Positions 5,228 through 6,507 of a stretch of DNA of 64,000 bases are shown here, piece by piece; position 1 is the first letter of the stretch, and each line of letters starts with the position of its first letter. A program made the translations under genes and the position numbers. Source of the DNA: Vreelandella aquamarina (GTDB lineage: Bacteria > Pseudomonadota > Gammaproteobacteria > Pseudomonadales > Halomonadaceae); the NCBI RefSeq assembly GCF_900110265.1, contig NZ_FODB01000005.1, forward strand, positions 1 through 64,000. The letters are read 5' to 3'. The notes beneath the pieces are model-generated. The model searched no databases. It saw only the letters and a list, made by a program, of their open reading frames with translations, and was not told the DNA's origin.

Positions 5228-6142
5228 ATGGAGAGCATTACCGGAGCACTAGGACCGCTGTTTTTATTGATTTTATTGGGTGCCGCCATGGGGTATGGGC
5301 GCTGGCCTCATCTCGATTTTTGGGCGCAAATGGAGCGGTTTATCTATTTTGTGCTGTTCCCTGCCATGCTGGTGGGCACGCTGGCGACAGCCGATGTGAG
5401 CCAAGTGCCCGTTGGCCGGTTGGCGCTGGCATTGCTGGGGGCAATAGCGCTGTTTGGCCTTGTGCTGTGGCATTTTCGAGCCTGGTTACAGCTCAGCCCG
5501 GCGGCATTCACCTCGGTGTTTCAAGGTGCCGTGCGCTTTAATACCTATGTGGGCGTAGCGGGGGCCGCCGCGCTGCACGGCCCGTTGGGGGCCACAACGG
5601 CTGCGGTCGCCGTGGCGCTGATGGTGCCCGTGGTGAACGTTATGTGCGTGGCCAGCTTTGTGGCGGCGGGCACGCTGGGTCGCGCAAGTCTGGGTAAAAG
5701 CGCGCTAGCGCTGGCGAAAAATCCGCTGATTTTGGCTTGCTTGGCAGGGATTGGGCTGAATCTTAGCGGCGTTGGCCTGCCCGGCTGGAGCGAAGATACC
5801 GTCACGTTACTGGGACGCGCAGCACTACCGCTGGGACTGGTGGCCGTGGGGGTCGCGCTTAAGCCTATGGCGCTGCTGCGTATTGACCGAGGGGTGATTG
5901 CTACTAACGCCATTAAGCTACTGTGCATGCCAGCATGTGTACTGCTGTTAGCGTGGCTACTGGGGCTCGACCCCGTCAGCCGGAACGTCGCGCTGCTGTT
6001 TGCTGCGCTACCCACGGCCACCTCGGCATACATCCTTGCCCGCCAGCTGGGCGGCGATGCGGAATTAATGGCGGCCATTATCACCGGGCAAACACTGCTT
6101 GCCATGCTGACGCTGCCGTTTTGGCTCAAGCTGGTCGGGTGA
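5228..6142 (+). CDS. AEC-family permease
   Basis: This is a ten-helix secondary transporter of the auxin efflux carrier family; bacterial members carry organic acids such as malate or malonate. The 304-residue protein is hydrophobic throughout, with the glycine-rich first helix G-P-L-F-L-L-I-L-L-G-A, an R-F-N-T-Y-V segment near residue 104 and the late P-T-A-T-S-A-Y-I-L-A motif typical of the family near residue 264. The ATG follows AAGGAAGAAC. It stands alone: the gene before it is on the other strand and a separate transcription unit begins just after it. The substrate cannot be predicted. Confidence 0.85.
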   Translation: MESITGALGPLFLLILLGAAMGYGRWPHLDFWAQMERFIYFVLFPAMLVGTLATADVSQVPVGRLALALLGAIALFGLVLWHFRAWLQLSPAAFTSVFQGAVRFNTYVGVAGAAALHGPLGATTAAVAVALMVPVVNVMCVASFVAAGTLGRASLGKSALALAKNPLILACLAGIGLNLSGVGLPGWSEDTVTLLGRAALPLGLVAVGVALKPMALLRIDRGVIATNAIKLLCMPACVLLLAWLLGLDPVSRNVALLFAALPTATSAYILARQLGGDAELMAAIITGQTLLAMLTLPFWLKLVG

Positions 6143-6172
6143 AAAAATAAATAAAAAGTATTCGCATTTGTG

Positions 6173-6207
6173 TTGACGGGGTGAATGAGAATGATTATAT
6201 TGTGTTT
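6173..6207 (+). promoter_or_regulatory. Sigma-70 promoter with embedded Fur box
   Basis: The -35 element TTGACG (6173-6178) and the -10 element TATATT (6196-6201) are separated by exactly 17 bp. AATGAGAATGATTAT, lying across the spacer and the -10, matches 13 of 15 core bases of the classical Fur box. Fur with iron would block this promoter. Transcription would start near 6208. Confidence 0.75.
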
Positions 6208-6338
6208 GTCAGCGTTTGATGAGCCGCTGGCAACCACGACAGCGACTAGGCAGTTCAGCGCCGGTACCCTGTTATGGTTTCTCCCTCTCATTGCTAGTCA
6301 CGGTCTTTTGCCGCTCCTTTGGAGCGGCTTTCTTTTTT
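6208..6338 (+). ncRNA. Candidate Fur-repressed small RNA (RyhB/PrrF-like role)
   Basis: A transcript of about 131 nt is predicted from the promoter at 6173-6201 to a strong intrinsic terminator: stem GCCGCTCC/GGAGCGGC at 6310-6328 followed by a T-rich run to 6338. No convincing reading frame fits within it. The 5' part can fold (CAGCG with CGCTG). The 3' part before the terminator is U/C-rich and looks single-stranded, and carries CATTGCT at 6289-6295, a heptamer that, as I recall, also occurs in the RyhB pairing core. Iron-repressed RNAs of this kind silence mRNAs of iron-using proteins. The rest of the 366-bp gap between AEC and GST genes (6339-6507) shows nothing further. Homology to RyhB or PrrF is not claimed; the call rests on promoter, Fur box and terminator. 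Confidence 0.6.
6310..6338 (+). terminator. Rho-independent terminator of the candidate sRNA
   Basis: Perfect 8-bp stem GCCGCTCC/GGAGCGGC with a TTT loop, then TTTCTTTTTT. This is one of the clearest terminators in the window. Confidence 0.85.
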
Positions 6339-6507
6339 ATGCCTTCCTATAAATACCACTCAGCCCTTCATGCCCTGTTGATGGGCTGTAGGGCAAACTT
6401 TTTCCCATGGGTTGTGCGTTGACGTCGGTGGCCTACCTCAAAAGTGGTAGCGGCAGGCCGCATCGAGTGGTTTACGATACGTTTTCGTCACCTGAGGGGA
6501 ATCCACC

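Follow-up and report, generated by a model that had tools for sequence, protein, structure and literature searches.

A probable PrrF-type small RNA gene, divergent from its Rfam family, in Vreelandella aquamarina and its relatives of the Halomonas group

The closest known counterparts of the locus reported here are PrrF1 and PrrF2 of Pseudomonas aeruginosa (Rfam family RF00444), whose transcripts measure 114-116 nt; the parts of the source consulted name acnA, acnB, methyl-aconitase and sdhCDAB among the PrrF-affected genes, describe tandem prrF genes as restricted to P. aeruginosa among Pseudomonads and the read-through product of the tandem as PrrH, and list ArrF of Azotobacter vinelandii as an iron-repressed PrrF homologue (PMC2851614), which we liken to the present RNA by description. 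RyhB of Escherichia coli is likewise Fur-controlled and acts on the mRNAs of iron enzymes, according to excerpts of the literature. BrrF of Burkholderia cenocepacia does the same kind of job, the repression of acnA, a likeness by description; unlike the Halomonas-group RNA, it is described, in the portion of the article consulted, as lacking a Fur box directly upstream and as probably co-expressed with hemP (PMC7377471). Members of the Halomonas group are used as industrial hosts, and the PrrF1 scaffold of P. aeruginosa has been borrowed as a tool for work in them (PMC12164125, PMC13101641 and PMC13414033, each in the parts consulted). The titles and opening lines of abstracts in the literature searched, mostly open-access, describe no native PrrF for this group, and the consulted parts of a cheese review mention no Halomonas sRNA.

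The window, a stretch of 64,000 nucleotides from the salt-loving V. aquamarina, carries such a gene on its forward strand, between two other genes: an sRNA gene of the PrrF kind, real and conserved, known in kind and undescribed in this group as far as the literature was searched. We hold with high confidence that it encodes a diverged sRNA of the PrrF type which is repressed by Fur, uses Hfq and spares iron; its transcription, its binding of Fur and Hfq, its control by iron and its effects on targets are what we infer from the sequence. Conservation, structure and homology to PrrF all support the original suggestion of an sRNA gene behind a Fur-box-like promoter. It is likely to be a native PrrF of the Halomonas group, which borrowed PrrF1-scaffold tools may meet.

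The gene opens with a sigma-70-type promoter, TTGACG-17-TATATT (6173-6201), at the place given by the first-pass annotation and recognised by its match to the consensus (10/12) and its conservation; the alignment of the Rfam PrrF model begins at 6173. Overlapping the -10 element is a Fur-box-like site (6181-6199), which matches 14 letters of a 19-letter consensus and falls where the PrrF match is aligned with the model's 5' end. A Fur box had been reported there with 13/15 matches; the site stands, at 12/15 when the 7-1-7 form is counted by hand. Sites scoring at least 14/19 on either strand number four in the window, where 10 Markov-resampled windows hold 0.1 on average; the one at 6181-6199 is thus rare, though not unique in the window. 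As in PrrF1 and PrrF2, the Fur-box-like site stands directly at the promoter, by sequence and by conservation. Upstream of the -35 element lies an AT-rich element containing AATAAAAAGTATTCGCATTT (6148-6169), whose conservation is close to that of the Fur box and which matches the Fur consensus at just 10/19 positions and may be a UP element or a second, weaker Fur site. The same element reads AATATTCTCATTT in one locus from another genus of the family (L083), where it resembles a second Fur half-site.

At the other end, an intrinsic terminator with U tail (6310-6338) is formed by the stem GCCGCTCC-TTT-GGAGCGGC followed by TTTCTTTTTT, in agreement with the terminator claimed at the outset. Promoter, Fur-like site and terminator together enclose some 130 non-coding nucleotides, the predicted PrrF-like transcript (6207-6338), with a start that probably lies at about 6207-6209. 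By count alone, promoter and terminator are at chance level: the 3-kb region scanned holds two promoter-like sites where 1.2 are expected, and four terminator-like sites against an expected 4.2. An argument for a gene from either part by itself was therefore dropped; the locus rises above chance because it is conserved, and it is the parts together, with their conservation, that mark a gene.

Its upstream neighbour is a membrane transporter gene (5228-6142, forward strand; PF03547), which lies outside the sRNA and takes the place held by the phu operon at prrF1 and prrF2 (PMC7948967, consulted in part). This gene ends 30 bases before the -35 element and is found at 59/62 genus loci and at two of three loci from other genera of the family, a proximity and a constancy that would fit a transporter 3' untranslated or terminator region without iron regulation. 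We give that explanation very little credence: a promoter and a Fur-like site, both conserved, belong to the sRNA locus itself, and the stretch examined shows no transporter at three of the 62 genus loci and at one of the three from other genera of the family.

Conservation follows the parts of a PrrF-type gene, the preferred reading. A DNA search with 6140-6345 finds a match in all 61 genus genomes, the window's own included, and, among 36 genomes from other families in the order, two matches that are short and partial. Identity was calculated over 61 loci, one copy each, with two loci from G007 and with G017 left out, its copy being cut by a contig end. It is highest in the pairing core (6277-6308; 0.994), the -35 element (0.981) and the U tail (0.956), remains high in the upstream AT-rich element (0.929, the mean) and the Fur box (0.913), and drops to 0.528 ahead of the promoter, 0.532 within the inner loop and 0.385 beyond the terminator. 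Promoter, CATTGCT and terminator, whose presence in relatives had been proposed as a check, are all retained across these loci. A pattern scan for YCTCATTGCTAGTCACGGTC through contigs of 84,980 species returned 116 matching stretches, and the 80 of them that are listed all come from organisms named Halomonas, Vreelandella, Billgrantia or Halovibrio.

A small protein gene could in principle account for such conservation, either as 55 codons from 6185 or as an 8-codon frame with the stop ATGGTTTCTCCCTCTCATTGCTAG, the latter being intact in 54/61 loci. The 55-codon frame begins inside the promoter; the 61 loci differ in the length of 6185-6338 by 0 (26 loci), 1 (20) or 2 (15) modulo 3, so that 35 carry changes that are not multiples of three, and the frame from 6185 meets a stop within 40 codons in 44. 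A small ORF was rejected on these frame-breaking lengths and early stops. Past the stop of the 8-codon frame, the core goes on being conserved letter by letter, and the frame is absent from the cores of other families shown, which makes a coding explanation highly improbable. The initial description of some 131 nt without a reading frame holds across the 61 loci, in that no frame is conserved over the stretch.

Homology to PrrF is seen below the threshold of curated membership. At Rfam's own cut-offs nothing is found in the window; at a loose threshold, RF00444 matches over the whole model (positions 1-150; 6173-6337 in the window) with 37.4 bits and an E-value of 5e-5 for 301 bases, and the sRNA locus is the one match at E ≤ 0.001 in its own 3.5-Mb genome (37.4 bits, E 1.4e-4). 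As the gathering score of 90 bits is not reached, the locus is a divergent PrrF homologue and not a curated RF00444 member, in which it differs from PrrF1 and PrrF2. The transcript without its promoter scores 18.2 bits (E 0.35); promoter and Fur box thus supply about half of the score obtained directly against PrrF.

The reverse search uses R1, a covariance model of the transcript alone, promoter excluded, which scores 133.3 bits at 6207-6336 by construction, that sequence being inside the model. In 12 loci of other families picked by RF00444, R1 finds all 18 PrrF-type copies, with 20.9-42.9 bits and E-values of 1.4e-7 to 0.0086 (rough values, for 102 kb); the copies of four of these loci (L067-L070), called Pseudomonas-type because they exceed the Rfam cut-off, score 20.9-31.1 bits. 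At genome scale the reverse search is weaker: R1 reaches E ≤ 0.001 in just four of the 12 genomes behind these loci, missing eight, and in none of the four genomes over Rfam's cut-off. Across the order, RF00444 matches 26/145 genomes, just four of them over the cut-off, and 0/14 controls, a sign that PrrF may extend far outside the membership curated by Rfam; R1 matches 11/145, including nine outside the genus, all matched by RF00444 at the same places. Two genus genomes are in this draw, and RF00444 matches the window's own and misses the other (G005), in which R1 finds two copies and RF00444 none. Homology is thus seen along the whole length whichever side supplies the model, with R1 the weaker at genome scale.

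BrrF in Burkholderia is said to be convergent and unrelated to PrrF, and an origin of that sort can be put forward here too, as a Fur-regulated sRNA that arose within the Halomonas group and came to the same layout by convergence. The low score of the bare transcript against RF00444, a core that differs from CATCARGCTAATC, the lack of any Rfam family at its cut-off and the failure of R1, at genome scale, in the genomes over that cut-off all speak for such an origin. We nevertheless judge it improbable, given that R1 recovers 18/18 PrrF-type copies in the 12 loci, that the cores of L082 and L083, which belong to two further genera of the family, join both forms, and that PrrF has the same GCTA.TCACGG block and its parts in the same order. 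The first-pass annotation had taken the sRNA for a possibly new, lineage-specific one; the RF00444 match, the reverse search with R1 and the intermediate cores make it look instead like a divergent PrrF homologue.

The pairing core GTTTCTCCCTCTCATTGCTAGTCACGGTCTTT (6277-6308) shows where the two forms meet. It shares with PrrF1 and PrrF2 the pattern UCUCC...GCUA.UCACGGU and differs from them in that CAUCARGCUAAUC is replaced by CAUUGCUAGUC. The cores of L082 and L083 read CATCAAGCTAGTCACGG, intermediate between CATCAGGCTAATCACGG of the four over-cut-off genomes and CATTGCTAGTCACGG of the window; a third genome, from another genus of the family (L081), has CATTGCTAGTCACGG. Within the core, at 6289-6295, stands CATTGCT, which we take to be the letters of the RyhB pairing core and on which the proposed link to RyhB was built. 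The heptamer is there as described; the kinship with RyhB was rejected, as the locus searches give no RyhB match among the Rfam matches up to E 10 and PrrF relatives carry CATCARGCTA in its place. CATTGCT probably represents a late change in the PrrF core within the Halomonas group, and, since it replaces CATCARGCTA, looks like convergence on the letters of RyhB. Of the layout first proposed, that of RyhB and PrrF, the PrrF arrangement is conserved through the Halomonas group and a link to RyhB through CATTGCT is unsupported.

A wider history is conceivable, if on balance doubtful: in the Halomonas group, the acnA leader would have changed along with the ancestral PrrF seed, in which CATTGCTA took the place of CATCARGCTA, a RyhB-like string arising by convergence, and in some species the gene would have multiplied to as many as four copies in an array, the later ones retaining core and terminator without promoter or Fur box and so depending on read-through for their production, as in the case of PrrH. 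The acnA leader has the letters AGCCTGAGGAGA in two of the four genomes over the PrrF cut-off and AGCAATCAGAGGAGA in the window's genome. The natural series of seed changes suggested by the wider spread of PrrF is one in which sRNA-target co-evolution can be tested.

The consensus structure, derived from 46 aligned transcripts, consists of a 5' hairpin (SL1, 6209-6230), a long-range helix (6232-6241 with 6270-6279) that closes a variable loop, a single-stranded core and the terminator; with the Fur-box-like promoter site, it reproduces the succession of 5' hairpin, second stem and terminator in PrrF1 and PrrF2. In the 5' hairpin, 97.0% of cells are paired and four of six pairs show two-sided changes over the 46 sequences; in the long-range helix, which spans 6232-6279 around a loop of identity 0.532, the values are 99.0% and one of nine, and in the terminator, helix 3, 99.7% and two of seven. 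The core is unpaired in the consensus from 6280 on. Over all helices 98.7% of cells pair, against 27-47% in slid versions, a control biased in favour of the structure because this was derived from the alignment used for testing. Two-sided changes occur in 79 cells against 26.0 in shuffles (0/500 as high) and in seven pairs against 4.4 (16/500 as high); further pair types are not raised over shuffles (22 against 21.8; 302/500). Consensus and covariation together thus bear out the 5' hairpin, second stem, single-stranded core and terminator of a PrrF-type RNA. The window's own RNA folded alone keeps the 5' hairpin and the terminator (z -2.09; 5/200 shuffles equal); its lowest-energy single fold pairs part of the core and has no long-range helix.

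The proposed mechanism is that of iron sparing. In an iron-rich cell, Fur with iron would sit on the box over the -10 element and block transcription; at low iron, a transcript of about 130 nt ending at the terminator would be made, its U tail and core held by Hfq, and the core would pair with mRNAs that encode iron-using proteins, acnA first and probably acnD, at the site where ribosomes bind; their translation would then stop and the mRNAs decay, sparing iron. The window's genome has one Hfq gene and two Fur-family genes.

Targets were scored by the energy of the duplex that the core forms with each start region, and ranked against a background of 308 starts predicted in 20 stretches from a single relative (for acnA, the 225 of these with ATG and a Shine-Dalgarno site). 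acnA is the best predicted target. Its leaders in 60 genus genomes, which as leaders of relatives are not independent and include three starts set 15 bases late but kept (L415, L416 and L425), average -23.7 kcal/mol against -17.2 in the background, and fall in the best 5% in 26/60, in the best 10% in 36/60 and outside it in 24/60. The core is partly anti-Shine-Dalgarno, and shuffled cores also beat the background on these leaders, with a mean of -20.2 (6/200 equal the real core), so part of the effect is composition. In the window's own genome, AGCAATCAGAGGAGAAAG precedes acnA and pairs at -29.9 kcal/mol, with a rank of 0.004. Exchanging cores and leaders between genomes gives a mixed picture in the seven that remain after three of 10 were dropped, their start not being located: three acnA leaders pair best with the core of their own genome (G161, G097 and G000, the window's genome), although the own pair of G161 ranks just 0.172, and the leaders of G181, G121, G153 and G080 pair better with the core of another genome, that of G080 reaching -31.6 with the core of G000 against -25.7 with its own.

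The other ranks are quoted for rows with a correct protein start; starts were misplaced in 4/24 sodB, 15/26 sdhC/D, 5/8 of the 'acnB' set, 1/9 leuC and 17/30 cytochrome c4 leaders, and four aconitase-family loci (L334, L335, L342 and L345) are unscored. Leaders of the gene that we presumptively label acnD, from its protein start, rank 0.003-0.042 (three usable of eight loci), so that the RNA, like PrrF1 and PrrF2 with acnA and methyl-aconitase (the source there being consulted in part), is predicted to pair with acnA and acnD-type mRNAs. The acnD-type leaders of L339-L341 (GGGCCGTGACTAAGTGAGAG in L341) show strong complementarity to the core in its 3' half. leuC leaders rank 0.023-0.162 (eight of nine usable), and those of a dihaem cytochrome c gene, presumably c4, 0.006-0.075 (13 usable of 30).

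For the targets proposed at the start, the predicted pairing is thus good with acnA, and sdhC/D ranks 0.13-0.35 (11 usable of 26). With sodB, pairing is not above background (0.33-0.94; 20 usable of 24), so that sodB, unlike with PrrF1 and PrrF2, is not predicted as a target of the Halomonas-group sRNA and was set aside. A gene with the Sod_Fe_C domain (PF02777) is present in 25/25 other genus genomes searched and was not found in the window's, possibly because of a gap in its 125-contig assembly.

A scan of the window's genome for near-complements of the core with at most three mismatches yields 22 sites, one being the sRNA gene itself, against 26 for a reversed control. In our reading, one of the other 21 appears to lie on a real start codon, that of the dihaem cytochrome c gene; conservation in relatives extends over the entire leader of this gene (29/30 starts placed), so the site proves little. 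The start region TTAGCAATGAGAA of this gene (L222:878-1507, reverse strand) is complementary to the sRNA core, and in many relatives the gene lies about 17-19 kb from the sRNA gene.

The number of copies varies within the genus. From its loci, 88 copies were extracted, some partial, and the stretch equivalent to 6207-6336 measures 114-144 nt in 83 of 85. The window's genome has one copy, and at least 19/61 genomes have two or more, 18 of them in a single locus and G007 with two copies on different contigs. In three genomes (G044, G049 and G058) no promoter or Fur box is seen upstream of the later copies, for which read-through is the obvious route of production. Tandem prrF-like copies with core and terminator and no visible promoter or Fur box are found at L064:2236-2736, L065:2235-2731 and L014:1691-1953, with a spacing of 183 bases in two of these genomes and 135 bases in the third; in L014 and L065, some copies have a decayed core. 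Insertions break the core after CTCATT in L061 and L062 (G009 and G048). In L041, L036 and L037 (G013, G057 and G036), the copies stand about 1.3 kb apart, leaving space for an intervening gene.
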